The notes under the pieces were generated by a model. The model was not told the DNA's origin and made no database searches. It saw only the letters and a program-made list of their open reading frames with translations. From assembly GCF_024296865.1 (NCBI RefSeq), contig NZ_CP101134.1, forward strand, positions 4,154,001-4,218,000: a stretch of DNA of 64,000 nt, given 5' to 3'. This stretch comes from Sphingobacterium sp. LZ7M1 (GTDB lineage: Bacteria > Bacteroidota > Bacteroidia > Sphingobacteriales > Sphingobacteriaceae). Shown piece by piece: positions 19,927-62,305 of this stretch (position 1 is the stretch's first letter; each line of letters begins with the position of its first letter). Made by a program: the position numbers and the translations under genes.

Positions 19927-19930
19927 AGAT

Positions 19931-22023: not shown

Positions 22024-22041
22024 TTTATATTAAATTTAACA

Positions 22042-23613: not shown

Positions 23614-23623
23614 GACTTAAGTT

Positions 23624-26947: not shown

Positions 26948-26969
26948 AATAGATGAATAATTAAATTGG

Positions 26970-44212: not shown

Positions 44213-44227
44213 TGAAGGATTATGCTA

Positions 44228-45274: not shown

Positions 45275-45550
45275 CTAGAACTCGCGTTTAGCTAAATAGA
45301 AATCCTCTTTTTCTGTCATCAGGGTTTTATCTTCCTTCTTCTTGTCGTAATAACCGCAAAGGTGAAGTACGCCATGGATGATAACGCGATGAAGTTCGTC
45401 GCGCTCGGAGACATTGAATTTTTTGGCATTTTCGGTGGTCCTTTCCACGGAAATAAAAATATCTCCAGCGATTACGTCTTCATCCTCGGAGGAATCAAAG
45501 GTCACGATATCAGTGAAGGTATCATGGTCTAGGTATTGTTTGTTCAATTT
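45275..45550 (-). pseudogene. ybeY: Endoribonuclease YbeY, 5'-truncated remnant
   Basis: The frame reads as the C-terminal two-thirds of YbeY: LNKQYLDHDTFTDIVTFD, DIFISVERT and the zinc motif HGVLHLCGYYD. About 45-50 N-terminal residues are missing. Upstream of the Lys-Leu-Asn codons the sequence becomes the 3' end of the SSS symporter, in another frame. An ATG inside the symporter gene (45604) could give a chimeric 109-residue product with 18 foreign residues, but this lacks the YbeY N-terminal fold. YbeY processes rRNA ends and is rarely dispensable, so an intact copy elsewhere would be expected. Confidence 0.8.
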
Positions 45551-47154
45551 TACCAGAATCGCCAGTAGATATAGCACCAACCAATAGCATATAAAAGGAG
45601 CCAAAACTTAACGCTTTTATACCAAGGACGGTGTGCATTTCCTCCTTCAAGTTCGCGGACCCAAGAAGGTCTCCAAACATAAGCTTTTACGACCTCTTCT
45701 GAGGGGCCCTCTGTGACTAGGGAAACCCCTATAATTAACATCATGGTTAGCGCTTGAGCAATAGCTCCTACATATAACCAATGGATATCAATACGCAAAG
45801 CAACTAACGAGCCGGCTAGCAACAATTGTAATACTACTCCGCCGATTAATCCGGATATTGCCCCTATATTGCTTGTCCTTTTCCAAAAAACGCCCAACAA
45901 TAGCACCGATATAAATGGAGTTGCCATATAGGTAACTCCGGTCTGAAAATATTTAAAAAGACCAATGCTACCCACCAGTGGAGCTATGAGGGAAGAGATC
46001 AGCAGGGCTGCTCCGCCAGATAGTTGTCCTGTGATGATTAGTTCACGGTCCAATGCCTTTTTCCGTATGATTTTTTTGTAAACATCTAAAGAGAAAATTG
46101 TTGCAATTGAATTGGAAAGTGCACTGATAGTCGACATTACAGCGGCAAAAAATCCAGCTAAAATTACACCACGTAGACCTGAAGGGGCAAATGTATGCAG
46201 TGCTAGTGGAAAAGCCTTATCCTGGTTGTCTGGTAATAATGAAGGGCCCTGACCCAGTACGTCCAGCCAATGATAGACAACAAGCCCAATCAAGCAGGTA
46301 ACTAAGGGACGAATGATATTGATAAAACCAGAAAAGATAAGTCCCATCATTCCATCCCATGTACTCCTTGCGGAAAGAATTCGCTGGATCATAACCTGAT
46401 TTGAAGACTGATAAAATAAAAATACACCAAAAGAGGCTAAAATCAGACCAGCGAACGGTGCCTCCGGATCTGAAGGAGATTGGTAGAGATGAAAACGCTC
46501 TGGCGCAGCAGCTACCATGGCATCCCAACCTCCGGGAATCTTATCTAAGGCGATGAAGAAAAATACAACTCCACCACCAATGAGCATGACACATTGAATT
46601 GCATCAGTCCACATCACCGAACTTAACCCACCAATTAAAGTATAGCTAGCTGTGACAAGGACCATTCCGACCATAACGTAGTTTTGGTCCCATCCGGTAA
46701 GTTCACTTAGAGTGAGGCTCCCACCATAAATAACTGGGGGTAAAAAAACAAAAAGGTACCCAAAAAGTATCACGAAACTATAAATTCCACCACATAGTGG
46801 GCCAAACCTTCTGTTGAGTAGTTCTGGTACTGTCATGATTTTATTTCGCAGATATAAAGGAATAAAAAAGACCATCATCAAAAGGTATGTGGGAAGAGCC
46901 CACCATTCCCAATTCGCTATAGCCATACCTCCTTTATAGGTCGCCCCAATTGTTCCGACGATCTGTTCACTAGAAACACTAGTTGCCACAAAAGCAGCTC
47001 CAATTAAGTACCAAGGCATATTTCCCGATGCTAGAAAATAACCTTCCGTGGTTCGTTTTACCTTACGTGCGGCAATAAAGCCAATGACAACTACCAATAG
47101 GGTTTCGCCAACAATAATCAGAATATCTAGAAAGGAAAGATGAAAATTATCCAT
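45550..47154 (-). CDS. SSS-family sodium:solute symporter
   Basis: This 534-residue membrane protein has about 13-14 hydrophobic segments and SSS motifs (FVATSVSSEQIVGTIGATYKGG, SNSIATIFSLDVYKK). It is the distal gene of the twelve-gene operon and should import the monosaccharide or sugar acid released by the two glycosidases. Its stop codon touches the ybeY remnant, marking one edge of the presumed insertion. It is only distantly similar to the symporter at 4908-6566. Confidence 0.87.
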   Translation of the reverse strand: MDNFHLSFLDILIIVGETLLVVVIGFIAARKVKRTTEGYFLASGNMPWYLIGAAFVATSVSSEQIVGTIGATYKGGMAIANWEWWALPTYLLMMVFFIPLYLRNKIMTVPELLNRRFGPLCGGIYSFVILFGYLFVFLPPVIYGGSLTLSELTGWDQNYVMVGMVLVTASYTLIGGLSSVMWTDAIQCVMLIGGGVVFFFIALDKIPGGWDAMVAAAPERFHLYQSPSDPEAPFAGLILASFGVFLFYQSSNQVMIQRILSARSTWDGMMGLIFSGFINIIRPLVTCLIGLVVYHWLDVLGQGPSLLPDNQDKAFPLALHTFAPSGLRGVILAGFFAAVMSTISALSNSIATIFSLDVYKKIIRKKALDRELIITGQLSGGAALLISSLIAPLVGSIGLFKYFQTGVTYMATPFISVLLLGVFWKRTSNIGAISGLIGGVVLQLLLAGSLVALRIDIHWLYVGAIAQALTMMLIIGVSLVTEGPSEEVVKAYVWRPSWVRELEGGNAHRPWYKSVKFWLLLYAIGWCYIYWRFW

Positions 47155-47167
47155 AGAATTTTACAAG

Positions 47168-47980
47168 TTAAAATTTGTTAATACAGTCCAGTGAGCTGTA
47201 GGGATTGTATACCTTCCAGTTTTGAATGAACTCCGCGGATTGTCCAGGAACGAGGATATGCTGTTTACTCAGGGTTTCAAGTTCAATATACTCTGGACAT
47301 ATGAAAATTTCTGTATTTGAACCATTATCAACACAATCCTCCTCCCTGGAATGCTCGTTGTTTAGAATGCACAGTCCCCCTGCTGGCTGTGATGCGGATA
47401 ATGAGATGGGTATTTGGTGCCAGCCGGCTTTGCCCCTATATCCACCTGGTTTCACTGTTATTTGCCGGTCTGAATGACACCAATTTGAAGGGTCAGTTCC
47501 GGGCCAAAAATTCATTTCACCAGAATAGCAACTTGCCATTACCGTAGCAGACCGAGGGACACAGGTGATTCCCCAAAGAGCACCAATCCATTCCCTGGTT
47601 CCCTTGTTGGTAAGGATATGCGTGATATCAAAGCCTTCTGTATCCCTACCCTGGGCAATCTTCAGAGAGAGTTCTAGCCCCGAAGGCCTAATAGGAGCAG
47701 TAATAGAAAGCTCCATTCCCTGGATTACTACCTGGCAGGGCTCGTTATCTGGAAAATAGCTCTCAGGAATTTCGGGGGCGATAGTGAAACGGTGACCTCC
47801 ATACATGTGCCAATCACCCACCATAAAGTTGGTCGTATCTTCATAAAGTAGATTCTCTCCTTCATTAAGGCGCAAAGATAGTATACGTGGGCCATGAGAA
47901 ATACCAACAATCAGCTCTATGTTCTCTGTCCGGCAAGTCACAACCTCCCAGTTTTTCCAGGTTCCTTGTTCTAGGATCAT
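47168..47980 (-). CDS. DUF4380-like protein (aldose-epimerase fold)
   Basis: This protein of about 270 residues has the DUF4380 pattern: early LIVGISHGPRILSL, then WHMYGGHRFTIAPE. It resembles aldose 1-epimerase beta-sandwich proteins without their full active site. The frame opens at 48049, but the ATG at 47980 overlaps the PIG-L stop by four bases and gives the natural start. No signal peptide is present, so it is cytoplasmic. In this operon it may mutarotate or bind the imported sugar; that is inference. Confidence 0.72.
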   Translation of the reverse strand: MILEQGTWKNWEVVTCRTENIELIVGISHGPRILSLRLNEGENLLYEDTTNFMVGDWHMYGGHRFTIAPEIPESYFPDNEPCQVVIQGMELSITAPIRPSGLELSLKIAQGRDTEGFDITHILTNKGTREWIGALWGITCVPRSATVMASCYSGEMNFWPGTDPSNWCHSDRQITVKPGGYRGKAGWHQIPISLSASQPAGGLCILNNEHSREEDCVDNGSNTEIFICPEYIELETLSKQHILVPGQSAEFIQNWKVYNPYSSLDCINKF

Positions 47981-48684
47981 GGTAATATCCTTTTTGTCAG
48001 ACCTCGTTGAAATGCGTCCAATCGGGTAAAACCCTCTGCATATTTGCATCCGGCGGCCATTCCACGAAAACGGGATTGTACTTCGATCAGATCGAACAAC
48101 TGAGTATCCGCAAGATTCTGCATCGCTTCAAATTGGCTCTTATGGCAGGCCAACATCGCTTTTTTGATCTCAAACACATCCGAAATGTCTACATATTCCG
48201 TTGGCGAAAAACCGATACCGCCCAAATTGTCCATATAATACAATTGGGAATGGCCGAAGCGACAGGCTCCAAGGTTTTGGCCTGGAATATGGGGCAGCCC
48301 TTTCTGAAAGTAACTATCAAAGACCAATTGGCTCACATATCTATGATCGGGATGATAATCATTAGGAGCATGGGTAAAAATGACGTCTGGGTCTGCTTCT
48401 CTAAGGATATCAATCATTAACCTTCTCTGTTCAACATCCGGGAAAACATGTTCATCCATCACACCAGGCCAAATTACCTTTGCGCCAATGATCTGGGCTG
48501 CATCAAGGGCTTCTTTTTCGCGTATTTCTGCTAGCTTTCCAGGTTCGATCACAGCATCTCCCATATTCCCGGATGTAAAAATGGCAAAGTTTAATTGATG
48601 CCCCTGTTGGGCATAGCGGACCATCGTTCCTGCACAAAGGATTTCTATGTCATCGGGGTGGGCTACAATACAAAGAATATTCAT
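47977..48684 (-). CDS. PIG-L family deacetylase
   Basis: This 235-residue protein has the zinc-binding AHPDDIEI motif at the N terminus and the later HAPNDYHPDHR motif. PIG-L/LmbE enzymes remove N-acetyl groups from GlcNAc-type sugars or their conjugates. There is no signal peptide, so it acts after import. Its presence hints that the substrate of the locus carries an N-acyl amino sugar, or that an acyl amide is released during catabolism. It is coupled by ATGA overlap to the DUF4380 gene. Confidence 0.87.
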   Translation of the reverse strand: MNILCIVAHPDDIEILCAGTMVRYAQQGHQLNFAIFTSGNMGDAVIEPGKLAEIREKEALDAAQIIGAKVIWPGVMDEHVFPDVEQRRLMIDILREADPDVIFTHAPNDYHPDHRYVSQLVFDSYFQKGLPHIPGQNLGACRFGHSQLYYMDNLGGIGFSPTEYVDISDVFEIKKAMLACHKSQFEAMQNLADTQLFDLIEVQSRFRGMAAGCKYAEGFTRLDAFQRGLTKRILP

Positions 48685-48696
48685 GTCAATTAGAGG

Positions 48697-49377
48697 TTAT
48701 AAGACGCCGTATTTATTGTACACTGTCCTTAGTGAATCGCCTTTCAATAGGTCGATTCTGGATTGATCTTCCTTGAAAACCTTTTCATACGCTAGGTTCA
48801 GCACTTCATTTTCCAATCCTAGGGGTATAACGACAATTCCGTCAAAGTCTGAAAAAATCAGCTCGCCCGGCTTTACAACAACATCACCGCAACGGACCGG
48901 TACGTCATACGCCATCACACTGCCTCTGCCCAAACTATCAAGCGGCCGGATGCCACCATGGAATACAGGAAACTGCATCTGCATGATCTTGCGACAATCT
49001 CGGATCAGGCTATCGCAAATACAGCCAACTGCCCCATTGCGCTTAGCAATGGTACTCATTAATTCACCCCAAGGAGCGTTAGTACCTGCAAAATCAGTAG
49101 AATGGACCACTACATCCCCAGGCCTCAAGGAATCGACAGCTTCAATTTCCAGATCATATGGATTCTCGTCGATGTAATCAGTATCCATCCAACGGAGTGT
49201 TCTTGCCCGACCAATCATTACACTATTATCTGGATCTAATGGCCGCAACCGTTGGTGCATTGCTTGGTTCCTATAACCTAAAGTGTCAAGGACATCGCAT
49301 ACAATCGCCACATAAAGATTTTTCTTAATCCAGTTGAATTTTTCTTCATCAACCATTAAATCTACTCTTGATTCCAT
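48697..49377 (-). CDS. RraA-like protein, possible 2-keto acid aldolase
   Basis: This 226-residue protein belongs to the RraA/HMG-aldolase family. The conserved block GTNAPWGELMS is at about 98-108, followed by the metal and catalytic residues in CDSLIRDC (D122, R126, D127). Family members with the Arg-Asp pair cleave 4-hydroxy-2-oxo acids by a metal-dependent aldol reaction, whereas RNase E inhibitors share only the fold. Next to an enolase-superfamily dehydratase, an aldolase role is more likely than RNA regulation. Confidence 0.82.
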   Translation of the reverse strand: MESRVDLMVDEEKFNWIKKNLYVAIVCDVLDTLGYRNQAMHQRLRPLDPDNSVMIGRARTLRWMDTDYIDENPYDLEIEAVDSLRPGDVVVHSTDFAGTNAPWGELMSTIAKRNGAVGCICDSLIRDCRKIMQMQFPVFHGGIRPLDSLGRGSVMAYDVPVRCGDVVVKPGELIFSDFDGIVVIPLGLENEVLNLAYEKVFKEDQSRIDLLKGDSLRTVYNKYGVL

Positions 49378-49438
49378 AATTTTTTTGTTTTTTTATAATT
49401 AAACTAATTCATATTGATTTCCATCGTTTTCTAGCTGA

Positions 49439-50194
49439 CTACCAAATAAATGGCACCATTATTTCGGGGATGATACATTGCTCTCCCAAATTATTATGCT
49501 GACAGAACCATTTGAACACCTCTGGGTTTTCCGTATTCAGGGTCATCATATCATAGTGGTTCGGCATAACATATTTTGGCTGCAGTACTCCTGCAAACTC
49601 TGCAGCTTGTTCTGCTCCTAGGTTTCCCCATTTACCATTGATTGGGACCAGCATGACTTCAGGGCTCTTTGGTGCAGCGGCTAGTACCAAAGGGTGATAC
49701 TGAGTATCGCTGGTATGATAGAAATTTCGTCCGTTGGAAAATTCCACAAAATACCCAGTTGTATCAAGTACATCGATACCTGTAGGCAGGGCAAATACAC
49801 CGGTAATCCTGATTTGACCGTTAGACCAAGTTTCCCCTACATCCAAAACTATAATTTGTCGATTGCTAATGCCTAAATTAGGCAGGCGTTTGGCAGTAAG
49901 CCTTGGCGCAATGAACAATGTACTGTCCTTGTTCTGATATTTTGATATGGTGCTTGGATCTAAATGATCCAAATGATCATGCGTTATGATATAGATATCT
50001 ACATCAAGGTCTTCTGGTAATATGGGTGGAGAATAGAGTCGTGAAAATTCCGGGGCACCTTGTGCCGCAGAATCAGAAAGGTAAGGGTCTATAGCAAGGG
50101 TTAAATTTCCTGTACGGGCAACGTAACCTGCCTGCCCCAGCCACCATATAGCAGCTTGATTCACTAAGAGATTCTGATTTTTAATAGATTCCAT
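49439..50194 (-). CDS. Metallo-beta-lactamase-fold hydrolase (UlaG-like)
   Basis: This protein of about 251 residues from the ATG at 50194 carries the metal motif THDHLDHLD and further His residues in YHTSDTQYHP and MPNHYDMM. The frame opens at 50290, but the extra N-terminus lies inside the enolase-superfamily gene and has no family similarity. UlaG opens L-ascorbate-6-phosphate lactone; relatives include other lactonases. A sugar lactonase role fits the neighbouring dehydrogenase. Confidence 0.84.
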   Translation of the reverse strand: MESIKNQNLLVNQAAIWWLGQAGYVARTGNLTLAIDPYLSDSAAQGAPEFSRLYSPPILPEDLDVDIYIITHDHLDHLDPSTISKYQNKDSTLFIAPRLTAKRLPNLGISNRQIIVLDVGETWSNGQIRITGVFALPTGIDVLDTTGYFVEFSNGRNFYHTSDTQYHPLVLAAAPKSPEVMLVPINGKWGNLGAEQAAEFAGVLQPKYVMPNHYDMMTLNTENPEVFKWFCQHNNLGEQCIIPEIMVPFIW

Positions 50195-50204
50195 AATCTC
50201 TATC

Positions 50205-51356
50205 TTACAAATTGACACAGAAACGCTTAACTGCCTTTTCATTGATTTCAACCCCCAACCCAACTCCTTTAGGCACAGCGATATACCCATCAGAATCCAT
50301 TTTTACTGGATTTTCGATAATCTCTCGTAACATTGGGTTATCACTCACATTATATTCTAAAAACAGTGATTTAGTCAGAACTGCATTCAAGTGAAGACTT
50401 GCTGAAGTCAATAGGTCAGTTAACCAAGCATGTGGGCAGACATCAATACTCGCATATTCTGCTTCCCAGACAATTTTTCTAGCCTGAGTGAACCCTCCAC
50501 AGCGAGAAAGATCTGGTTGTACAACATCGATACCACCACGTTGGATCAATTCTCGAAATCCCCAGCCAGTAGCCTCTTGTTCTCCTGCGGCAATTCTCGT
50601 CCTAACACCAGCTGACTTAACCTTATTATAACCATCGTATGATTCCGGGTTTAAAAAGTCTTCCAGCCAAAATATATTGTAAGGTTCTAGGGCGCGGCAT
50701 AGTTCAATGGCATCATAGGCACTTCGATTAACCATCCAGCCAGCATCCACCATGAGTTCAACATCAGGACCCAAGGATTCCCGAGCGGCCTGGACTAGTT
50801 TGATATCTTGTTTAGGGTTCTGTCCAAATACTCCCCATCCAAATTTCACGGCCGTGAAGCCTTGCTGTAAGTAAAATTCACAGGCCTCCTTCATCGCTTC
50901 TGTAGTCGGCCGGAATAAGGTGGAAGCATAGGCACGTACCTTGTCCCTTCGAGCACCGCCCAGGATTTTATGGATCGGCCTTCCTATTGCCTTTCCCATA
51001 ATATCATGGCAGGCGATATCAAATCCAGACAAAACCTGCATGGCTACCCCCCTCCTACCAAAATAGATCATTCCTCTGTAAATCTTATCCCAGAGACGTT
51101 CAACCTCAAAGGGATCTTCCCCTATGACAAGAGACCTTAATCCCTCAAATACACCAGCACCACTTTCTGGGGCATTGACCACAGCCTCCCCAACATGAGG
51201 GGCTGTTTCTACATCCGACCATCCGGAAATTCCTTCATCGGTACTGACCTTTATGAGTAGACAGTGTTTTACCCCTCGTGCTTCATCACTTCCCTCTGGT
51301 GACTTAATTTCATATGGAGATTGTAGAATAAAAGCTTCAACGTTTGTTATTTTCAT
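50205..51356 (-). CDS. Enolase-superfamily sugar acid dehydratase (mandelate racemase/muconate lactonizing type)
   Basis: This 383-residue protein has Mg2+ ligands Asp204 (MVDAGW), Glu232 (WLEDF) and Glu259 (AAGEQE). A general-base-type Lys171 lies in AVKFGWG, and the His309 region reads CPHAW. The GEQE and PHA motifs resemble L-rhamnonate and related acid-sugar dehydratases more than muconate cycloisomerase. It should convert an aldonate to a 2-keto-3-deoxy acid. The start overlaps the dehydrogenase stop by four bases. The exact sugar acid is unknown. Confidence 0.86.
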   Translation of the reverse strand: MKITNVEAFILQSPYEIKSPEGSDEARGVKHCLLIKVSTDEGISGWSDVETAPHVGEAVVNAPESGAGVFEGLRSLVIGEDPFEVERLWDKIYRGMIYFGRRGVAMQVLSGFDIACHDIMGKAIGRPIHKILGGARRDKVRAYASTLFRPTTEAMKEACEFYLQQGFTAVKFGWGVFGQNPKQDIKLVQAARESLGPDVELMVDAGWMVNRSAYDAIELCRALEPYNIFWLEDFLNPESYDGYNKVKSAGVRTRIAAGEQEATGWGFRELIQRGGIDVVQPDLSRCGGFTQARKIVWEAEYASIDVCPHAWLTDLLTSASLHLNAVLTKSLFLEYNVSDNPMLREIIENPVKMDSDGYIAVPKGVGLGVEINEKAVKRFCVNL

Positions 51357-52360
51357 AAATTTGATTGATTAAAAGTTAGAGCGACTTTGATGGCTTGATC
51401 GTGATGTTCCGCTACTAGGCGAAAGGCCTGTTTCCAGTCTGCAAATGGAATATGCTGTGTTATGACTTCATTTATAGCTAATGCTGGATCGGCCAGGCAT
51501 TCCATAGCTTCATCCATCTTGTGCTCGTCGTTGCATGCTCCGACAATTTCAAGTTCTGACACGTGAAGGGTGAAAAGGTTCAGACTCACAGGCTCGATAA
51601 TGTTACTGAAAACAACTAACCTGCCTCGAGGACGAAGGGCATTTAAGCAGGTCTCCAAAGCTCCGTTTGCGCTTACCGCCAGAATAGCAACATCTACGGA
51701 TTTGTCCGCGACGTTGCCAGCAATCTCCACATCCGGAATCCTAGACAATCTGAATGGCTCCTTACCGATCACAATAACGTGTGAAGCACCGGCCCGATTT
51801 GCTAAACGAGAAATGATATTTCCAAAAGGTCCATCTCCCAGCACTAACACCCGTTTTCCTTTTATCTCTCCTGCCCTGGAAATGGCTTGCAGACAAACCG
51901 ATACCGGTTCCAACAGCGCACCTCTATCAAAAGGAAGTGTTGATGGCAATTTTCTTACACGATCTGCTCGCTGTAGATAATATTCCGCAAAGCAACCGTC
52001 CTTGTCGATTCCTAGATGTCCCATATTTGAGCAGATGTGATCGAATCCCCTTAAGCACTCTGCGCAGTTCCCACATGGGATCACGGGATGAGACGCAACT
52101 CTATCACCAGGTGAAAAATCATCCACAGCAGATCCACATTGAACAACTATTCCCGCACCTTCGTGACCCATTGTTATCGGATACACAATGCCAAATGGGT
52201 TACTTTTCAGGTCATGCAGATCTGAGGTACAAATAGTCGCTGCCTGCGTTTTAATCAGAACCTGATCTGCTGCAGGGATAGGTACGGGTAACTCAACTTC
52301 ACATAGTTCATTGAGTCCCATGAGCTGTAAGGCCCTCATAGTCTTTCCAGTCATGTTCAT
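51353..52360 (-). CDS. Zinc-dependent medium-chain alcohol/polyol dehydrogenase
   Basis: This 335-residue MDR protein has the catalytic-zinc motif GHEGAGIV and the structural-zinc cysteines in CGNCAECLRGFDHIC. It has a Rossmann stretch (VLVLGDGPFGNI). It would oxidise a sugar or polyol hydroxyl with NAD(P)+. It overlaps both neighbours by four bases, consistent with direct pathway coupling to the amidohydrolase and dehydratase. Confidence 0.87.
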   Translation of the reverse strand: MNMTGKTMRALQLMGLNELCEVELPVPIPAADQVLIKTQAATICTSDLHDLKSNPFGIVYPITMGHEGAGIVVQCGSAVDDFSPGDRVASHPVIPCGNCAECLRGFDHICSNMGHLGIDKDGCFAEYYLQRADRVRKLPSTLPFDRGALLEPVSVCLQAISRAGEIKGKRVLVLGDGPFGNIISRLANRAGASHVIVIGKEPFRLSRIPDVEIAGNVADKSVDVAILAVSANGALETCLNALRPRGRLVVFSNIIEPVSLNLFTLHVSELEIVGACNDEHKMDEAMECLADPALAINEVITQHIPFADWKQAFRLVAEHHDQAIKVALTFNQSNL

Positions 52361-53220
52361 TGTACATTTGGAGTTGGGTGATTTAAACCTAGAAGGTTTA
52401 AAGTATCACGGTGAATAATACTTTCAATGATCTCGTCCGAAATCCTCGGCAAACTGCTATTCCCCAATATGGAATTCATGTTTCGTATATTTGCTATCGA
52501 ATCAGCAGTTGTGGTGAAAGGAAAATCGGAACCAAAAAGCACTTTGCCCTGTGCTCCATACTCAACCAAAAGACTCATTGAATTATAGAACTGCCATGGC
52601 CTGTAGTAAAGTGCTGAGATATCTGCGAATACATTAGCATGCCTGCGGATCACAGCAATTGTTTCTCCTTCCCAAGGATGTCCCAAATGGGCCAACACCA
52701 TGTGCAAATCTGGAAATTTAACAGCAACAGCGTCAAAATGGATGGGACGAGAATAATCTAGGTAAGTACCGCTAATGAAGGAAGTCCCTGCATGAAATAA
52801 AATTGGGAGACTATGTTTAACGCAGTATTGGTAAAGCTCAAAACATCGTTTGTCTGTAGGATGTATGTTCTGGTATAGAGGAGCCATTTTTACTCCTACT
52901 GCACCCAGATCCTGATGTGTCCTCTCCAACTCCTGCATATAATTTGGTTGAGTAGGGTCAATAGAAGTAAAGAATAGCAGCCGATTTGAAGCCAGAGCTA
53001 CATGTTCTGCTACCATATCGTTGGAAATATTCCATCCAGTTTTAAAAGCTTGCAGACCAAAAACCACGGCTACATCTGCAGCTTTTGTTGTTTCGAGATG
53101 TCTCTGCTTTACATCCCCCCATTCTGCTGGGTTCACTCCGCACCTGTTTAAATCTGCAAGAAGGTTCACCCCAAAATCAATCTCCGGTCGAAAAACATGT
53201 GTATGTAAATCTACAATCAT
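52357..53220 (-). CDS. Amidohydrolase-family (PF04909-type) hydrolase, possible sugar lactonase
   Basis: This 287-residue TIM-barrel protein has DLHTHVF at the N terminus (His6, His8), LFHAGT, LAHLGHPW and a late FGSDFPF Asp. This matches the amidohydrolase-2 group, which includes L-fucono- and L-rhamnono-lactonases. Lactone hydrolysis after the dehydrogenase would yield the aldonate used by the dehydratase. This specific role is inferred from operon order; the family also has decarboxylases. Confidence 0.8.
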   Translation of the reverse strand: MIVDLHTHVFRPEIDFGVNLLADLNRCGVNPAEWGDVKQRHLETTKAADVAVVFGLQAFKTGWNISNDMVAEHVALASNRLLFFTSIDPTQPNYMQELERTHQDLGAVGVKMAPLYQNIHPTDKRCFELYQYCVKHSLPILFHAGTSFISGTYLDYSRPIHFDAVAVKFPDLHMVLAHLGHPWEGETIAVIRRHANVFADISALYYRPWQFYNSMSLLVEYGAQGKVLFGSDFPFTTTADSIANIRNMNSILGNSSLPRISDEIIESIIHRDTLNLLGLNHPTPNVQ

Positions 53221-53249
53221 AATTTAAATATTTTAATCATTTACCTAAA

Positions 53250-54632
53250 TCACTCCAATGACCAATAGTGAACGGCCCATGGTTCTAATCTTAAAGATAA
53301 TGTTTGGTTCCCTTTTTCGAGCTTGATGAAGGGATTAGGGTGTAAACGTTGGTTCTCATCAACTGCACCTGGGCTTGCGTCAAGGACGATATGTCGAACT
53401 CGCATTTCTTTTGGCAGATCGCGGAGGTCCAACTTCAATTCAATCGTTTGATCAGAAAAATTCCACAGCATCATGTTATGCATCATTAACTTGGGGTCAT
53501 AAGTAGCAAAACCATGGACTTTTTCGTGGTCCGAATTTACTTTCAATTTATTTCCAGCCATCCTGGAGATCAGTTTAAAAGAATAATAAGCGGGACGAAG
53601 TTGGTTTTGGTAATCTATTAACCCACTGAACTGTGCCTGTCTATTCCACCATCGGGTCATGAAAGCAGCTCCAGAAGGAGAAAACACTTTGGCAAAAGTG
53701 TCGTAATTTACATACCAGTCCTTTATCTGATAATAGCACGACCAGTCTAATCCTGCATCTTTCATCTGCCAAATGGTTTCTGCTATGAAACATGGTTGAA
53801 ACCTTGGGTCCAAAGGAGGGTTAAACAAATCCATATTCCACTCGTTCATTATAATCTGAGGCTGAAGACCGGTAAACTGACGAGATAGGTTCTTAACGTA
53901 CTCGATCTGCGCCCTTATTGCAGAAGGATCATTGTTATAGTTATGAAACGAAACAAAATCGAGCTGTAATTTCTGCTGGGAACAGACTTTCATCAATTCG
54001 GGCAGGATAGGTGATTTATAATACGCTAGTGCAGGTCCACCGACCTTTGCCTGTGGATCAGCTCTTAAAATGGCCGAGGTAGTATGTTTGTAATAACGCG
54101 CATAGCTTTCTGGTTTAAAGCGATAAGGTGTCCCTCCATCCTCACCAATATCTACCTCATTGCCAACTTCCCAAAATTGTATACCTACCTTACGATCCAC
54201 GAAATGCCTTACGACCTGATACACAAACTCCTCCCAAGCCTTGTAGTCATTCGGCTCTACGATATCTTGGTCGATGACAGGGAAGAATACCTTAGGTTTC
54301 AAACAAAAGCTCATAAATGGCTTTGCTCCTGTCTCCAATATGTTGTTTACCATACTGTCCAAAGTATCAAAATGGTATTGTCCGTTTTGAGGGAGGACAT
54401 CATAATATTCACTTACAAATAACCTAATAATCGCAGGGTTAAGAGCCCGAATCTCAGCGATTCTGCCAGCGAGCATGGGCTCTTCGGTCAATCCCCCCTG
54501 GCCTAATGACATTTGCTCCATTTTCATTGGCCCCAATTCTTTGGAAAAATCTATTTTCATATTTGCAGTTTGGCCGCAGGCACTGGCATAGAGCAGCAAT
54601 GAAAGTACGGCCATTAAAAAGAATGATCTCAT
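53250..54632 (-). CDS. GH39-like clan GH-A glycoside hydrolase, putative lipoprotein
   Basis: This 460-residue protein has a signal with a possible lipobox (YASAC, Cys19). The clan GH-A acid/base Glu159 is in WEVGNEVD and the nucleophile Glu264 in MNEWNMD. The barrel covers about residues 50-370, followed by a small beta domain. The overall pattern resembles GH39 and related xylosidase or arabinofuranosidase families, but family membership needs a profile search. It lies in the surface/periplasmic part of the operon. Confidence 0.78.
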   Translation of the reverse strand: MRSFFLMAVLSLLLYASACGQTANMKIDFSKELGPMKMEQMSLGQGGLTEEPMLAGRIAEIRALNPAIIRLFVSEYYDVLPQNGQYHFDTLDSMVNNILETGAKPFMSFCLKPKVFFPVIDQDIVEPNDYKAWEEFVYQVVRHFVDRKVGIQFWEVGNEVDIGEDGGTPYRFKPESYARYYKHTTSAILRADPQAKVGGPALAYYKSPILPELMKVCSQQKLQLDFVSFHNYNNDPSAIRAQIEYVKNLSRQFTGLQPQIIMNEWNMDLFNPPLDPRFQPCFIAETIWQMKDAGLDWSCYYQIKDWYVNYDTFAKVFSPSGAAFMTRWWNRQAQFSGLIDYQNQLRPAYYSFKLISRMAGNKLKVNSDHEKVHGFATYDPKLMMHNMMLWNFSDQTIELKLDLRDLPKEMRVRHIVLDASPGAVDENQRLHPNPFIKLEKGNQTLSLRLEPWAVHYWSLE

Positions 54633-54660
54633 ATTTAAGTATTTAAAGTTTTTTATTGAA

Positions 54661-57498
54661 TCAATATTTAGCGGTTATCACGTATTGTTTTTCAATAGGT
54701 TGATCCAACTGGATATATTCACTGCTTACATTGAAATTCTCCCAAGGTTCTCCGTTGACCAATACGGATCGTATCGGTAACCCTTGGGGATGCCGTAACC
54801 TTACCAGCATTGCCTTTGGTGGATTTCGCTCGGATAACTCAATCTCTACGCTGATATGGTTCTCATTCAGGCCAATTATGGTATAGGAAACCGGTCCAAA
54901 ATAAGTAGGTGCATCCTTTACGGTTATTTTTTTATCCTTTTCCAACCATTTTCTAGGTGTGGCCTGTGCAATGAACAGTGTATCCTGTCCGATTTCATTG
55001 AGCAACATTTTACGATAGATCTCAAACCATGCACCATCGGTACTTGGCGGACCATAGTATTGTCCCCATGCCCAGCGATGTTCTAATGAGGTAAGCTGTC
55101 CATGGGCAAAACCACTTGCCATTAGGCTGTAAAAGGCACGGATAACTGCCTTTGGATTATCGCGCAACAGGTATGTATTTGCCTGCTGGATATAAACAGG
55201 TTCATTTGCAGCCCCCTGATTTTTTAAGAACAGGTTATCCTCATGATCATTTAACATCGCAGTTGTAAGCCAGCTGTGAGGATCGAAAACCTCCAACCTT
55301 GAAAGATGCAGAGGGCCTGTATCCACATCAGATGGATACCATTGATCCATGAGGCGCCGGAACGTCATGGCATCTGCCGGTACGTAATTGATCCATGTCC
55401 CATCCTCTAACTGTACGATAGGTGACTTAACACTGGCTCTTGAAAACTCCTTGACAACATCTGCTTTCATCTTAGAGGATATGTCTAAGACCTCTTGCGC
55501 TCTGGGATGTCCATATTTGGTTAATGCCTTACCAAACAATTCCAGTCCTGCAACGAAATATGCCTGGGTAAATGCCCATTCCCTTTCGGCGGTAGTCAGA
55601 TCGTTCAAAGGAGCTAGTATTAAACCGGTCTTATTTGTTCCTGAGTTGGCTTTATCGATTTGTGCGATACACCAATCTAGGGTTTTGAGGGCATTCGGTA
55701 ATAATCTCTCTAATTCACTGGTATTTCCCGAAAGCAGATAATTTTGTGCTATAGCATATAGGTGGCCTGGTGAATAAACACCCCAATTTGCAAATCCGCC
55801 TATACGACCATCGGGCTGTTGTTGGGATTTGAACATGGCGGCGATTTCCTGTTCAGCTACATTTTCATACCCACGTAGACCATAGATCATATAATCTACA
55901 TAGACAGCTTGATTAATAGGCCAATCAGCATTTTTTTGTCCATAGGCAGTATTTGCATACGGTAAGTCCATATGGGGAAGTCCCAAGCTATCCAGGGTAT
56001 GGCGTGGTAAGACGAGCGAATGCCATAAACTGGCTCTAAATAGATCGTTCACTGCTTGCTCGGAAACCTCAAAATGCGCTCCCCTATCTATCCATTGCTC
56101 CCAATAGTTAACCGTTCGATTCCTTGCTAGATCGAACTCTAGGTCTTTTAAGAGGGATATACCATTCCCTTGCACCCCAGGAGATGGGAGCTTGACCATA
56201 AACCCTTTCGTAACTCCTGCGGGAAGATTACCACTCACAGAGAACGAAACCCTTTCTCCGTTTTCCACTGAAGGAGCCTTTTCCCCCTCGATTGAAAGGC
56301 CTTGGTCTGCCTCGACGATCAACAAAACCTGGCCGCTTTGTGTATCAGTAACAGACCATACACCTGAGGTGTTATTTAGCTCAATCCTTTTACCCTTAAC
56401 CACATTTGTGAAGCTGAGGTCGAACTGGACTGGCTTGCCATCGCCGGTGATAAATACTTTACTGAGTGATACGCTCGGAATGTCACCCCTAAACACCTTT
56501 GCATCTGGATCTAGCGTGCTGACAAATTGTTCCACCTTGGCGAGTTGACCACCCTGCTCAAGTTCAGTGAGTACGATAGGTAGCCCATCGACGACCCTCT
56601 GGCTCTTCCATTTACTTCCAGGCCACTGAAAATCCAATTGGAAACGGTGGGGGGAAGCAAAATCAGGTCTGATGTTTGCCCAACGGTCAATCGCAAATTT
56701 GTAGACCGAACCGTGCTGGGCAGCTGTAACAGTTAGGTTCCCAACGGTCCCCATGTATTTTGTCTGCCATGAAACGTCCCATTCCAGTGGATTTCCAAAG
56801 TCAGGCCATAGACCCTTGAATTCCTCAAGGGTAGCATCGGGGTTCTTGGATACATCATGCAAAATACGAGACCCCTTTAGGTTTTTCAGGTGTAAATGAA
56901 AATCTATTGGTTGATCGGCAAGGGTGATATAGACATCTTGCTCTGGTAGCCACATGGCCCTATGCCTGAGCAATTGCTCCAAGCTTAAAGAAAAACCCTC
57001 TGTACCTTCTTTGTTCAATTGGATGGAAAGTATTGGTGCATCTGGCTTATTCCAGGAATCATCTTTCAGCCTAGCGGATTGGCCGGGAGAACCTTTTTCC
57101 ATTAAATATCCCCACATTGCATCTCCATTTAAAGAATAACCATCCCTATGTTTGGCCAGTTCTCTTAATGGAGCGGTAGGTTTTGGCCATTTTACTGTTG
57201 CAACGAGCTCGTCAACATCCCCCTTTCCGCAATAAAGTACTGTTGTGGCTGCATTGACTTTTTCACCATTTTCCAAGTTCTTTCCTTGGAGCTTGCTGAT
57301 TTCCATGCCTTCAGAACCTTTGATCAACGAAACCGTTCGGACTGCCCTTTCTGAGTTCTTCAATCCAAATGAAATTTTAATTTTGACGTGTTGGATTTTC
57401 TGTTCCTGCTGAGCAAATACGGCATCATTGAAGATCAGAATACCTGCAAAACAAATAAATATCTTACCGAACAAACGCACCCTTTTTTTTCTAATCAT
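54661..57498 (-). CDS. Large secreted protein with six-hairpin (alpha/alpha)6 glycosidase-like domain
   Basis: This 945-residue protein has a signal peptide ending in VFAQ. Residues about 30-460 look beta-rich. Residues about 480-830 form helices with six-hairpin-like segments (FRASLWHSLVLPRH, GQKNADWPINQAVYVDYM, GHLYAIAQNYLLSGN, EREWAFTQAYFVAGLELFG). A small beta domain closes the protein. The helical part recalls GH78/GH95-like enzymes, but I do not recognise the family. Conserved acidic residues in the helical domain are candidates for catalysis. It is the first enzyme gene after SusD. Confidence 0.7.
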   Translation of the reverse strand: MIRKKRVRLFGKIFICFAGILIFNDAVFAQQEQKIQHVKIKISFGLKNSERAVRTVSLIKGSEGMEISKLQGKNLENGEKVNAATTVLYCGKGDVDELVATVKWPKPTAPLRELAKHRDGYSLNGDAMWGYLMEKGSPGQSARLKDDSWNKPDAPILSIQLNKEGTEGFSLSLEQLLRHRAMWLPEQDVYITLADQPIDFHLHLKNLKGSRILHDVSKNPDATLEEFKGLWPDFGNPLEWDVSWQTKYMGTVGNLTVTAAQHGSVYKFAIDRWANIRPDFASPHRFQLDFQWPGSKWKSQRVVDGLPIVLTELEQGGQLAKVEQFVSTLDPDAKVFRGDIPSVSLSKVFITGDGKPVQFDLSFTNVVKGKRIELNNTSGVWSVTDTQSGQVLLIVEADQGLSIEGEKAPSVENGERVSFSVSGNLPAGVTKGFMVKLPSPGVQGNGISLLKDLEFDLARNRTVNYWEQWIDRGAHFEVSEQAVNDLFRASLWHSLVLPRHTLDSLGLPHMDLPYANTAYGQKNADWPINQAVYVDYMIYGLRGYENVAEQEIAAMFKSQQQPDGRIGGFANWGVYSPGHLYAIAQNYLLSGNTSELERLLPNALKTLDWCIAQIDKANSGTNKTGLILAPLNDLTTAEREWAFTQAYFVAGLELFGKALTKYGHPRAQEVLDISSKMKADVVKEFSRASVKSPIVQLEDGTWINYVPADAMTFRRLMDQWYPSDVDTGPLHLSRLEVFDPHSWLTTAMLNDHEDNLFLKNQGAANEPVYIQQANTYLLRDNPKAVIRAFYSLMASGFAHGQLTSLEHRWAWGQYYGPPSTDGAWFEIYRKMLLNEIGQDTLFIAQATPRKWLEKDKKITVKDAPTYFGPVSYTIIGLNENHISVEIELSERNPPKAMLVRLRHPQGLPIRSVLVNGEPWENFNVSSEYIQLDQPIEKQYVITAKY

Positions 57499-57545
57499 TT
57501 CTATTCTATTATCTACTGTACAATTTATCTATATGTCCAATTTTA

Positions 57546-59192
57546 TCATTGAAATATCATATCGTAATTTGGATTCTGTTCCAAATTAGGGTTCTTATCC
57601 CTCGCCGATTGTGGAATCGGCAACAAATAATTCTTTTCGGGATAGAACTTTCTTTGCCCTCCACCAGCTGGCACGACCTCATAGACCCATTTTCCTCCTT
57701 TCTGTTCAATCTTCATGGCGTGTAGTGGGCCGTTTAAGTTGACATGAGCAAGCTTCAAGCGGAGCAGGTCAGGCAGGCGCTTTTCTTCAAAGGCCAGTTC
57801 CACCCTTCTCTCACGGTGGATCGCTGCCCGCATCTGTGCCTGATTCAAACCTTTTGGCAAATCCGGCAATTCGGACCTTTTCCTTACCTCATTGATGGCC
57901 TCGTAAACCGATATATCAGGGCCTACCGCTTCATTTTGGGCTTCCGCATAGCTCAATAGAACCTCAGCGTACCTAAAGATAATCCAATTTGCACTGTTGG
58001 CATTGTCCATAGCACCGGGATATTTGGGGTCTACTAGTTTTTTGGCATAGTAGCCTGTCCTAGTTGAAATACTGCTGTTGTTCAAGTCTGTTGCGTTCAG
58101 GCTCCCCACCCCCTGTTTCATTACCATAATGTCGCCAAGCCATTGAGACCCATCGTAAACAATGGTTTGATAGAATCTCTTTTCCCGGTTTACATAAGGA
58201 TTTTGAGGATTATATCCTGAGGCTGGGTCCGTGATTGGGAGTCCATTTGCCATGGAATAGGAATCAACCAATTCCTGAGTTGGTCCTACGTGTCCCCAGC
58301 CCGTTAGACTCCCCCTAACAAAACGGGGTCCCGTCTGCGCAATATAGTTTGCCAATGAAGTACCCCCCATGTGCTGTCGGCTAAAGATTACTTCCACATT
58401 GTTATTGTTTTGCTCTAGGAACAGAGTACCATAGTCGGGGAACAATCGGTAATTGAGCGACATCACTTTTTTGAATGTTGCCGCTGATGCTGCCCATTTC
58501 GCTTTATCGTTTGAAGGATTGTATAGAGCTCCTGCCTTAAACAATTCACAGGACCCCTTCAGCGTAAGTGCTGCCCCTTTTGTTGCCCTGCCCGATTCAG
58601 CAGTTGGAAGCAGGTCTTTTTCAGCCTCGGTAAGTTCCTTTAATATAAATTCAACCGTTTGCTCAGCAGTATTTCGTGCCCTGAACACATCCTCTCCCTG
58701 TTCATTTTGGTTAAGTACATCGATAATGATAGGTACTCCGCCATGATACATCCACAATAGCGAATAAAAGTAAGCTCTCAGGAAACGTGCCTCAGCTAAT
58801 CTTGTCTTTTTCCAATCCTCTGGAAGGGCCGAAGCACTTACCCGTGCAATGAACAAGTTGCACTTACGGATATTGGCATATTGGCCCCATTGACTCGGCG
58901 CATTGCTCGGGGTATAGATGGAAGGACCATAGATGTTCGTACTGACACGCCCTGCCTGTCCATTGATCGAGTTGTCTGAGAAATTTTCCCAGGGATCTCC
59001 AATATCCAGGCTTGGTATGGACGCATAGATATTGTTGAGGAATAGATCGGCATTTGAGCTGGTCGACCAGAGCGTACCATCGGATACCTGGTCTTTGGGT
59101 GTTACCTCTAGATATTTTGTACATGAAACTAAGCTACAAGTGATAAATATGAGTAACAATGCCTTTTGCGATATTTTTAACATATAGTTCAT
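57546..59192 (-). CDS. SusD/RagB-family lipoprotein
   Basis: This protein of about 548 residues from the ATG at 59192 has a lipobox (SLVSC). The frame opens at 59285 inside susC; those extra residues are not signal-like, and an ATG at 59183 is also possible. It shows the SusD helical core and the family motif ERRVELAFEEKRLPDLLRLKLAHVNLNG near the C terminus. It should bind the glycan at the surface as partner of the SusC gene upstream. It is clearly different from the SusD of the sialic acid operon. Confidence 0.9.
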   Translation of the reverse strand: MNYMLKISQKALLLIFITCSLVSCTKYLEVTPKDQVSDGTLWSTSSNADLFLNNIYASIPSLDIGDPWENFSDNSINGQAGRVSTNIYGPSIYTPSNAPSQWGQYANIRKCNLFIARVSASALPEDWKKTRLAEARFLRAYFYSLLWMYHGGVPIIIDVLNQNEQGEDVFRARNTAEQTVEFILKELTEAEKDLLPTAESGRATKGAALTLKGSCELFKAGALYNPSNDKAKWAASAATFKKVMSLNYRLFPDYGTLFLEQNNNNVEVIFSRQHMGGTSLANYIAQTGPRFVRGSLTGWGHVGPTQELVDSYSMANGLPITDPASGYNPQNPYVNREKRFYQTIVYDGSQWLGDIMVMKQGVGSLNATDLNNSSISTRTGYYAKKLVDPKYPGAMDNANSANWIIFRYAEVLLSYAEAQNEAVGPDISVYEAINEVRKRSELPDLPKGLNQAQMRAAIHRERRVELAFEEKRLPDLLRLKLAHVNLNGPLHAMKIEQKGGKWVYEVVPAGGGQRKFYPEKNYLLPIPQSARDKNPNLEQNPNYDMIFQ

Positions 59193-59212
59193 TTTGAATA
59201 TATTTATCGTTA

Positions 59213-62200
59213 TTAAAATGTAATGTTGAGGCCCAGTGAAAACGTTCTTTGGTTGGGGTATCCCCAACTCCCATTTGGAATCCATGAATTATTTGGACCT
59301 ATTTCCGGATCATAGTTCACCAGATTTGTCCATGTCAGTAGGTTCTGACCCGATAAGAAAACCCGAATGTTCTGCATCTTTACTTTCTCTAGGACTTGGG
59401 AAGGAAGGCTATAGGAAATCGTAGCGTTCTTCAGTCTCAGGTAACTGGCATCTCCCATCCAGAAAGAAGATGTTTGGGAGTTATTTACTGTTGGAGCGGA
59501 TGTAAGGCGCGGGTTTGATGCATCGGTGTTTTCCGGTGTCCAGTAATCAAAGTTCTGTACATATGGGAGCATTGTGTCCCAGAAAGGCATAATAGATGAT
59601 GGGTGATAGTACCAATCAGTCTTACCAGCTCCTTGGAACAGCAGTTCGAGGGCAAAAGATTTATATTGTACGCTTGGTGAAAAGCCATAGATGATTTGTG
59701 GTGAGGCAGTTGGTTCCCCGATTACGGTAATATCGTCATCGTTGATCTTTCCATCACTGTTAATGTCCTCATACCGAATGTCCCCAGGCTGGACTGCGCC
59801 CCAAGGTTGTATTGCGATTCCAGGGTTCAGATTTCCGTTGCCATCAAAGTCACTTTGCTGAAAATACCCCAGGGCATTGAATCCAAATTGGGTTCCTAAG
59901 GGTCTACCGGTAAGGCGTCGATTAGGGTTATTGAGAGTTGTAGGGGTCTCAAAAACCTGGATTAACTTGTTTTTCGCATATGTTAGATTTGCTCCTAAAG
60001 AGACTCTCAGGTCATCAGAAAAACTATAGCTCGAGCTAGCCGTTATGTCAAACCCTCGGTTATCCATGATTCCGGCGTTTACTTGGCTTAGGCCAATACC
60101 ATATTCAGCCGGAACGATAACATCTGGATTCATGAGCATATTTGACCTTTTCTCATAGAAATAATCAATTTCTAGATTCAGGAGACCTTTCCATAGATTT
60201 GCTTCCAACCCAACATCAGTTTTCTTGGCCCTCTCCCAGGTAATATTTGGGTTTGGCTCAGCTTTTTCCCTGATTCCCTGTACAGCACTGTTCCCCAAGA
60301 CATAATTTGTACCAAGCACACTATAGGTGCTCATGTATTGGAACGGACTACCGGCCAAGGCACCAACCTCACCATAGGAACCTCGTATCTTAAGGTTATC
60401 TAACCAGGAAACCTTATTCTTCAGGAAGTTTTCCTCGGACAGACGCCATCCTGCAGAGAAAGCAGGAAAGAACCCAAACCTCTGTTCTGGAGCGAAAAAA
60501 TAACTTCCGTCATATCTACCGCTTGCTTCCAATAAATACTTTTGTGCATAATCATAGGCAACACGGTAAACCAACCCCATCTGCCGGGAGGCACTTGAAG
60601 CACCTCCGGTACTCATATCTGCCTGGCTAGAACTGCCCATGTTCAGTTCGTCTATTGTCAAGTTGAAGTTTCTGCGCTCTGCCATCAAACTTACCAGGTC
60701 ATTGCTTTTAGCTTCAAACAATCCCAAAACATTGATGTTATGTTTGCCAAAGGCACGGTCATAGTTCAAGCCAGCCTGGTAAGTAAGTTGCGCACTATGG
60801 TCCGTCGCATGGCGGAGCGAGGGTTTGGTCTGACCCCAGATTCCATCGTTAATCACGTACGGAGTTTGGGACTTATCTAGGCTCGCCTTATGGACCGGGA
60901 GCAACCATGTTTTGTTGGAGATAAAAGAAGGGTCATATGCAACTGTTCCCTTGAATTTCAGTCCTGGGACAAAGTTTATCTTCTGTTCAATGGACAGTTG
61001 GGAGTACAGTGAGGTCGTATTTAGTTTCTGGTAACCACTTTCAAAAAGGCTACCGGTCACAAATGTACCTGGCAAACCGTTACTGAAGCGGAGTGGGCCA
61101 TACAAAGGGTGCAGATATCCGATTAGCTCGAATATCCGGCCCGTTGAAACCGGAGGATATAAATCATTTTGCTTTCGCCCATTGAGCGTAAAAGTAGCTG
61201 TTGTGCTGCTCGTTACATGAGCCTCTAAGTTAATCGCTAGGTTAAATCTCTCGGTATTGGTTGTAGGCCACATCCCTTCTTGAAACTGATACCCCAGGGA
61301 AGCGTAATATTTTACACGCTCGGCACCTCCTGTAATCTCCAGATTATGATTGGTCAGTATAGCATTGGGGTTGGTCAGGTCGCCCCATATATTCTTAAAT
61401 GTAGGGAAAGCATCAGGATCTGAGCCGTCCTGGAACTTCTGCAAATCAGATTCAGAGTAAGGTTCAACAAGTCCCTCATTCTTAGCGGCTGCATTTCTTA
61501 GGGTAGCATATTGGAAAGAGTTCACGAAATCTGGTAGAACGACAGGGTTCTGAAAACCAACCCAGCCATTATAGCTCATGGTCGGGGCTCCCATTTTACC
61601 TTTTTTTGTTGTCACCAAAATAACACCATTCGCCCCTGCCACTCCATAAGGCGCCACAGCAGCGGCATCCTTTAAAATCGAAAAGGATTCAATGGAATTT
61701 GGATCCAGCTGCTGAAAACTGCGTGGTATCCCATCTACAATAATCAATGGCTGACTAGTTCCCGTGGAGGAGATACCACGAATGAATATATTTGAACCAT
61801 CCCTCCCAGGTTCTCCAGATCCTTGTTTGACCATCACCCCTGCCAATCTCCCACCCAGACCGTTGCTTAGGTTAGAAATCGGAACTGAAGAAATTTCTTC
61901 CCCCTTCATTGTTGACACGGCCGCAGTTACAGACGTCTTCTTCTGTGTTCCGTATCCTACGACTACGACCTCATCGATTCCGCTTTGGGAGTCTTTGAGC
62001 ACGATGCTCAAAAATTCCTGGGTAATCACCTGTACGGTAATTTCCTCCATCCCAGTGTATGAGACCTTTAATGTCTGGCCTATTGCCACCTCTAGAGCGA
62101 ATTCGCCCTTTGAATCTGTACTGGTGCCCTGCTGGGTTTCCAGAATAATTACTGAGGCGCTGACCAAGGGAGTTTTTCCATCGGTAACTTGTCCTCTGAT

Positions 62201-62305
62201 CGACAACTTCTTCTGAGCAGAAACATTGGAAATCAAAAAGGAAACAAAAAGCAACAACAGGAATATCTTCCTGGAATTGACTAGAAGCAAGTATTTTAAT
62301 TTCAT
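59213..62305 (-). CDS. SusC/RagA-family TonB-dependent transporter
   Basis: This 1030-residue protein has a signal peptide (ISNVSAQ), a CarboxypepD_reg-like domain (QVTDGKTPLVSASV) and a TonB-box-like VVVVGYGTQKK. The plug has GGRLAGVMVKQGSGEPG and the SusC marker SIESFSILKDAAAVAPYG, and the barrel ends in LGLNITF. It opens the twelve-gene operon and imports the oligosaccharide. It is divergent from the AraC regulator, with a 296-base gap between them. Confidence 0.93.
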   Translation of the reverse strand: MKLKYLLLVNSRKIFLLLLFVSFLISNVSAQKKLSIRGQVTDGKTPLVSASVIILETQQGTSTDSKGEFALEVAIGQTLKVSYTGMEEITVQVITQEFLSIVLKDSQSGIDEVVVVGYGTQKKTSVTAAVSTMKGEEISSVPISNLSNGLGGRLAGVMVKQGSGEPGRDGSNIFIRGISSTGTSQPLIIVDGIPRSFQQLDPNSIESFSILKDAAAVAPYGVAGANGVILVTTKKGKMGAPTMSYNGWVGFQNPVVLPDFVNSFQYATLRNAAAKNEGLVEPYSESDLQKFQDGSDPDAFPTFKNIWGDLTNPNAILTNHNLEITGGAERVKYYASLGYQFQEGMWPTTNTERFNLAINLEAHVTSSTTATFTLNGRKQNDLYPPVSTGRIFELIGYLHPLYGPLRFSNGLPGTFVTGSLFESGYQKLNTTSLYSQLSIEQKINFVPGLKFKGTVAYDPSFISNKTWLLPVHKASLDKSQTPYVINDGIWGQTKPSLRHATDHSAQLTYQAGLNYDRAFGKHNINVLGLFEAKSNDLVSLMAERRNFNLTIDELNMGSSSQADMSTGGASSASRQMGLVYRVAYDYAQKYLLEASGRYDGSYFFAPEQRFGFFPAFSAGWRLSEENFLKNKVSWLDNLKIRGSYGEVGALAGSPFQYMSTYSVLGTNYVLGNSAVQGIREKAEPNPNITWERAKKTDVGLEANLWKGLLNLEIDYFYEKRSNMLMNPDVIVPAEYGIGLSQVNAGIMDNRGFDITASSSYSFSDDLRVSLGANLTYAKNKLIQVFETPTTLNNPNRRLTGRPLGTQFGFNALGYFQQSDFDGNGNLNPGIAIQPWGAVQPGDIRYEDINSDGKINDDDITVIGEPTASPQIIYGFSPSVQYKSFALELLFQGAGKTDWYYHPSSIMPFWDTMLPYVQNFDYWTPENTDASNPRLTSAPTVNNSQTSSFWMGDASYLRLKNATISYSLPSQVLEKVKMQNIRVFLSGQNLLTWTNLVNYDPEIGPNNSWIPNGSWGYPNQRTFSLGLNITF

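Follow-up and report, generated by a model that had tools for sequence, protein, structure and literature searches.

The locus described here raises the question of how a glycan-derived sugar could be degraded by oxidation, dehydration and aldol cleavage in a pathway that does without kinases. It comprises twelve co-directional genes on the minus strand (62305 to 45550) of a window of 64,000 nucleotides, that is, the whole stretch analysed, from the closed, 4.59 Mb genome of Sphingobacterium sp. LZ7M1 (contig NZ_CP101134.1, positions 4,154,001 to 4,218,000), with a SusC gene first and the gene of an SSS sodium-solute symporter last. All twelve open reading frames (ORFs) on which an initial annotation of the sequence had been based are present, and the families it had assigned as SusC/SusD, GH39-like, Amidohydro_2, Zn-dependent dehydrogenase, enolase superfamily, UlaG-like metallo-beta-lactamase fold (MBL), RraA-like, PIG-L and SSF are significant in Pfam or NCBIfam. 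Adjacent susC and susD genes together with a co-directional GH39 gene identified by Pfam mark the locus as a polysaccharide utilization locus (PUL), and no sugar kinase was found, by Pfam, NCBIfam and locus comparison, among the twelve genes or within the conserved core blocks. We consider it reasonably probable that the locus is a PUL carrying a transferable, kinase-free sugar-oxidation cassette which operates, as a whole, in the manner proposed below.

The proposal is founded on the conservation of six genes, here called the core, which encode the Amidohydro_2 enzyme (AmHyd), the Zn-dependent dehydrogenase (ADH), the enolase-superfamily protein (ENO), the RraA-like protein, PIG-L and the symporter. 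When the ENO protein was scanned against 84,980 species genomes and all twelve window proteins were then compared with every locus, ENO was found at 75–86% identity in sixteen distinct non-self loci (L007–L021 and L026), and in 16/16 of these the six core genes are collinear, being located on one strand within at most 9 kb and with their order kept; the locus of a further genome (L110) agrees. The background consisted of 59 loci with remote ENO relatives, located outside the core group and outside five Chloroflexi-like loci: PIG-L, the symporter, SusC and SusD are encoded in none of them, and the other genes are represented nearby by no more than a single remote AmHyd, a single RraA and six remote ADH. 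The joint conservation of the dehydrogenase, dehydratase and RraA-like genes, which had been set in advance as the check that could overturn the initial annotation, is seen in all 16 core loci, and no background locus holds the set. Chance clustering of the cassette genes was also considered and is ruled out by the contrast between 16/16 and 0/59. The symporter is present throughout the core loci at 63–84% identity, and so is PIG-L, which is thus as conserved as the dehydratase; the pathway first outlined for the locus had no step for this gene. The MBL gene is absent from 6 of the 16 loci (present in 10) and so would not provide an obligatory step; the mutarotase-like gene occurs in 9, so that both are facultative. 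The cassette is held by Chitinophagaceae, Cytophagales, Sphingobacterium, Parapedobacter, Bacteroidales metagenome-assembled genomes (MAGs) and one Verrucomicrobia MAG, and it is rare: among sampled genomes, it occurs in 2 of 151 from the window's own family and in 3 of 222 from another.

Two types of front end accompany the core. In type A loci (the window, L007–L015 and L110), SusC/SusD, an exported protein of 945 residues and the GH39 protein precede it, with SusC being 74–78% identical in these loci. Type B loci, which occur in Sphingobacterium, Parapedobacter and a Bacteroidetes MAG, have an unrelated SusC/SusD pair (∼30% identity) after the core, and several of them also encode a ceramidase-like protein, or a GH2 protein upstream; the ceramidase-like proteins are found 3' of the core in L016:15401–16690 (PF04734), L005 and L017. 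The occurrence of two front-end types on one core indicates that the core stands as a separate unit. Moreover, in a tree of concatenated AmHyd, ENO and RraA sequences the window core clusters with type A Chitinophagaceae loci (node support 0.98) and not with those of Sphingobacterium and Parapedobacter from its own family, and this placement suggests that the core was acquired horizontally. The G+C content (0.44 versus 0.41 in the left flank) does not clearly mark the block as foreign.

Beyond the Bacteroidota-type loci a smaller unit persists. Chloroflexi RraA orthologues are 63–71% identical to the window protein, far above ADH or AmHyd, and AmHyd recurs near RraA in most Anaerolineae loci, with ENO and ADH found in only some (several contigs being short). 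A UxuA-type mannonate dehydratase is located near the RraA–AmHyd pair in one Anaerolineae locus (L143:3192–6529) and a relative of its gene near RraA in a second (L145), while on the Chelatococcus plasmid pCO-6 the genes behind RraA (48% identity) and AmHyd (37%) encode an IlvD/Edd-family dehydratase, an ABC importer, a LacI regulator and an SDR oxidoreductase. AmHyd and RraA hence constitute the most durable pair, retained even where the dehydrogenase is absent. Since three unrelated dehydratase families occur beside RraA and AmHyd, the pathway appears to require dehydration of a sugar acid as a step adjoining those of RraA and AmHyd, and such non-orthologous replacement supports, by convergence, a kinase-free chemistry leading from dehydratase to aldolase.

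The core enzymes themselves fit this chemistry to varying degrees. In ENO (50205–51356; Pfam MR_MLE_C, 7e-59), which belongs to the mandelate racemase (MR) subgroup, residues K171, D204, E232, E259, D282 and H309 are invariant in 19 homologues; we take K171, the metal ligands D204, E232 and E259, and the dyad D282–H309 to be machinery of the mandelate racemase type. With dehydratase-type relatives and an intact active site, ENO is predicted by its sequence to be an acid-sugar dehydratase. ADH (51353–52360; Pfam ADH_N and ADH_zinc_N) can be placed in the Zn-dependent medium-chain dehydrogenase/reductase family; the nearest NCBIfam models, each matched below its cut-off, are those of threonine, inosose and polyol dehydrogenases, and the enzymes of the closest models act on secondary alcohols. 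AmHyd (52357–53220; Pfam 1.4e-33) is a candidate lactonase with invariant metal-site residues (H6, H8, H143, H178 and D232). Finally, the RraA-like protein (48697–49377; Pfam RraA-like, 6.6e-34), a candidate class II pyruvate aldolase with 66% identity to Chloroflexi, exhibits invariant R126-D127 and E105, which presumably match aldolase-site residues of the 4-hydroxy-4-methyl-2-oxoglutarate and 4-carboxy-4-hydroxy-2-oxoadipate aldolases.

From the genes, their conserved order, the catalytic signatures of ENO, GH39, PIG-L and RraA, and the exchange of dehydratases around RraA–AmHyd, all of which are directly seen, we infer a set of reactions, their order, a deacylation and a substrate as follows. 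SusC/SusD, together with the exported GH39-like and 945-residue proteins, would bind a glycan or glycoside and trim it, and the symporter (45550–47154; Pfam SSF, 3e-58) would take the released sugar into the cytoplasm. There, the Zn-dependent dehydrogenase would oxidise the sugar, probably at C1, to a lactone, AmHyd would open the lactone, ENO would convert the resulting sugar acid by dehydration into a 2-keto-3-deoxy acid, and cleavage of the latter by the RraA-like enzyme would yield pyruvate and an aldehyde, with PIG-L stripping an N-acyl group from either the sugar or the sugar acid.

Several observations weigh against this scheme: (i) none of the core enzymes has a characterised close homologue, and the nearest solved relative of ENO (3sjn) is itself uncharacterised, (ii) the profile search for AmHyd yielded 3irs (likewise uncharacterised), 3cjp, and gamma-resorcylate and carboxyvanillate decarboxylases, with no known sugar lactonase among its matches to solved structures, (iii) action of an RraA-family enzyme on 2-keto-3-deoxy sugar acids is not documented in the literature that we found, and (iv) PIG-L is missing from the Chelatococcus RraA–AmHyd operon and from L022 and L024, so that deacylation would not be part of every version of the pathway. 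The general chemistry of the initial annotation gains independent support from the association of RraA and AmHyd with unrelated dehydratases. For AmHyd, lactonase is no more than the likeliest guess.

The most serious alternative is that AmHyd is not a lactonase and forms, together with RraA, a lyase- or hydratase-plus-aldolase pair, with the lactone opening spontaneously or through the MBL protein (49439–50194, with the mechanically called ORF extending to 50290; Pfam Lactamase_B_2). The LigJ hydratase is of the amidohydrolase family and the LigK aldolase of the RraA family, and the two work as a pair. That AmHyd and RraA are the pair most durably kept, also without the dehydrogenase, and that the profile of AmHyd comes nearest to the decarboxylase-type subgroup would both agree with such an arrangement, as would the fact that LigJ/GalB hydratase and LigK/GalC aldolase catalyse consecutive steps (PMC12314914). 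However, each of the 16 Bacteroidota-type loci encodes the Zn-dependent dehydrogenase along with AmHyd, which is what would be predicted for a dehydrogenase plus a lactonase, and MBL, the other candidate for opening the lactone, is not encoded in six of them, so that we consider this alternative unlikely and retain AmHyd as the putative lactonase.

A second alternative concerns PIG-L (47977–48684; Pfam PIG-L, 2.9e-28), a metal hydrolase of the PIG-L/LmbE type. GalB is a PIG-L protein, and the window protein, encoded only 12 bp after RraA, might likewise be a hydratase that adds water to an unsaturated keto acid immediately ahead of the cleavage by RraA. In an aromatic cluster on the Rhodococcus plasmid pRZP2 (L157:3995–5403), a PIG-L gene overlaps the gene of a 4-carboxy-4-hydroxy-2-oxoadipate aldolase beside a Rieske protein, which is the galB–galC arrangement (PMC12314914), and its product, although annotated as a deacetylase, is judging from this context probably a GalB-type hydratase. 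Yet the Rhodococcus protein exhibits HGMD where the window protein has HPDD; the HPDD...H motif is intact in the window and in the aligned Bacteroidota proteins, and HQDD is found in Chloroflexi, both keeping the general base of the deacetylases. This HxDD...H motif provides metal binding and the general base in LmbE-like deacetylases (PMC4101496). The window PIG-L, moreover, scores highest against BshB1 (140 bits, below the NCBIfam cut-off of 182.5), and it does not show the GalB-like active-site motif in a comparison with one sequence that was assigned by gene context. Owing to this comparison of HPDD with HGMD, the hydratase, which we had at first favoured, now appears to us quite unlikely. 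The retention of HPDD argues instead for an amidase, and hence for an N-acyl sugar; that PIG-L indeed deacylates, making the substrate an N-acylated amino sugar, is suggested here tentatively, as a view that may well turn out to be wrong. We also note that on a plasmid of Halorussus halophilus (L158:2720–4810) a PIG-L gene adjoins one of the mandelate racemase family, close to genes for an aminotransferase and a glucose 1-dehydrogenase; this is possibly an archaeal analogue.

Further hints at the substrate come from accessory genes. The mutarotase-like protein (47168–47980, with the mechanically called ORF extending to 48049) had been annotated as a DUF4380 protein; it has no match in Pfam and a weak one to the TTE1925 mutarotase in NCBIfam (48 bits, E 7e-13). 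Together with a DUF4432 mutarotase-like gene in L130, it suggests a cyclic reducing sugar. In the Anaerolineae locus L022, RraA is directly followed by a relative of both the alpha-N-acetylgalactosaminidase NagBb and the 3,6-anhydrogalactosidase 5opq, and a PUL for sialoglycans is located elsewhere in the window. None of these hints, including PIG-L, is decisive, and N-acetylhexosamine or its acid is our favoured guess, at a confidence that stays well short of even. A 3,6-anhydrogalactose route of the DauABCD type, in which ENO would be a cycloisomerase, could draw on the L022 gene and on the match of ENO to the anhydrogalactonate cycloisomerase 5xd7 (2e-31), but it is highly improbable given that galactonate and other dehydratases match ENO much better, that a kinase, a DauD-type aldolase, a sulfatase and a carrageenase are all absent from the block, and that the amidohydrolase and PIG-L would be left unexplained. 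Equally hard to credit is a cyclitol route resembling that of Thermotoga IolM and IolN, with the dehydrogenase oxidising an inosose and a hydrolase cleaving the diketone: ADH does score 139 bits against the IolM model, and a relative of the 945-residue protein in L114 neighbours IolB- and IolC-like proteins (by eye), but this score is far below the cut-off of 450 and is not even the genome's best match to IolM, IolN was not found in the genome by a model that detects the Thermotoga protein, and an acid-sugar-type dehydratase is invariant in the cassette.

The exported front end could be assigned only in part. Of the two exported glycosidases initially annotated, the GH39-like protein (53250–54632; Pfam Glyco_hydro_39, 6.4e-24) is confirmed by Pfam and by its alignment with the beta-xylosidase 2bs9 (E 1e-13), in which the acid/base Glu of the NE motif is matched. 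The 945-residue protein (54661–57498) finds no sequence match in Pfam, NCBIfam or the PDB and can be given no named glycosidase family. Its AlphaFold2 model, calculated from 12 sequences, has a mean pLDDT of 64 (55 for a first, shallower model), and Foldseek ranks GH95, GH94 and GH65 structures best (E ∼1e-11), with nearly the whole chain aligned at a TM-score of only 0.3–0.4. Provisionally, we assign to it a beta-sandwich and an (alpha/alpha)6 glycosidase-like fold, in which catalytic residues cannot be named at a pLDDT of 64. In L021:14136–17129 a GH39 domain is fused to the 945-residue family in a single ORF running off the contig, which is good evidence that the two proteins act together. 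L020 encodes a remote relative (E 9e-14), and genome G512 a member of the family without a close ENO. Another remote relative is located in L114:56–10197 amid ORFs which by eye resemble IolC, IolB and a class II aldolase.

For SusD, MBL and the mutarotase-like protein, mechanical calling had set the start too far upstream; starts at ∼59192, 50194 and 47980 are preferred because the lengths then match those of relatives, and with these corrections the intergenic gaps range from −4 to +61 bp. For the SusD-like lipoprotein (57546–59192; Pfam SusD_RagB, 1.9e-60), called mechanically from 59285, a signal peptide begins at Met32 (∼59192), and relatives comprise 545–548 residues. It is encoded next to the SusC-like TonB-dependent transporter (59213–62305; Pfam Plug and CarbopepD_reg_2). 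Spacing and conserved order suggest that the twelve genes are co-transcribed; a promoter was sought by eye and none is claimed. Divergent from the operon, ∼300 bp from SusC, is the gene of an AraC-family regulator with a cupin-like N-terminus (62602–63504, plus strand; Pfam HTH_18), homologues of which (52–57% identity) also accompany the core in L015, L005/L019, L020, L026 and L110. At the symporter end, genes of a Gfo/Idh/MocA oxidoreductase with a twin-arginine-like leader and of an exported DUF6807 protein (42860–45256) converge on the operon. More distant in the window are a sialic-acid-type PUL (12325–26983) encoding a BNR sialidase, GH20, a GDSL/sialate O-acetylesterase (SASA), an MFS transporter and a DHDPS/NanA-like protein, with SusD- and SusC-sized ORFs at 22042–26983, and an arabinose/galactose cluster (2889–9970) with a GH127 beta-L-arabinofuranosidase, an SSF symporter, an aldose epimerase and a galactose-1-phosphate uridylyltransferase.

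If confirmed, our proposal would add a kinase-free route with an RraA-type aldolase to the known means of using glycans and might also reveal a new family of glycosidases; it offers a testable function for proteins annotated merely as 'RraA family', 'PIG-L deacetylase' or 'amidohydrolase', and it implies that an entire sugar-oxidation cassette is passed among PULs whose front ends differ. It would be most far-reaching if the locus represented a new N-acyl amino-sugar route (oxidation, lactone opening, ENO dehydration, PIG-L deacylation and RraA cleavage), if RraA–AmHyd were a general module joined in different bacteria to unrelated dehydratases and if the 945-residue protein founded a new (alpha/alpha)6 family working with GH39, but that all three hold jointly is doubtful.

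The initial annotation had recognised no described PUL with this set. In the open-access literature searched, no described system with these genes came to light, nor anything relevant on a PUL or pathway combining RraA, PIG-L and a dehydratase. An oxidative pathway embedded in a PUL is already known, however, from the carrageenan PUL of Zobellia galactanivorans with its DauABCD enzymes (PMC5698469), and the two share a Bacteroidota locus, a sugar dehydrogenase, an aldonic acid dehydratase/cycloisomerase, an aldolase and an AraC regulator. The Zobellia locus differs by its kinase DauC, a phospho-sugar aldolase, another dehydrogenase and sulfatases (PMC5698469), the 2-keto-3-deoxygalactonate kinase and phospho-aldolase defined there being absent from the window block, and it lacks the amidohydrolase, RraA, PIG-L and MBL. 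With the oxidative chitin (Ong) pathway of marine Pseudoalteromonas (PMC9537276), our scheme has in common an SSS symporter (for the sugar acid there), deacetylation and a 2-keto-3-deoxy acid, whereas that pathway uses OngB, a deacetylase of the D-aminoacylase type, the deaminase OngC and the kinase KdgK (PMC9537276), counterparts of which are all absent from the block. The 4,5-cleavage pathways of gallate and protocatechuate (GalB–GalC and LigJ–LigK; PMC12314914) likewise place an RraA-family aldolase beside a PIG-L protein or an amidohydrolase. Their substrates, however, are aromatic, they include no sugar enzymes, and the GalB-like PIG-L is devoid of the HPDD base. In the non-phosphorylative pathways for L-fucose, L-rhamnose and pentoses, dehydrogenase, lactonase, dehydratase and aldolase act in this order, and Amidohydro_2 lactonases occur among them. 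The logical order of steps in our scheme is the same, with an RraA-like protein in place of the DHDPS- or HpcH-type aldolase, an additional PIG-L, apparently another amidohydrolase subgroup and the setting of a PUL. It thus seems that the locus may work like a non-phosphorylative sugar-acid pathway, as a variant of known logic.

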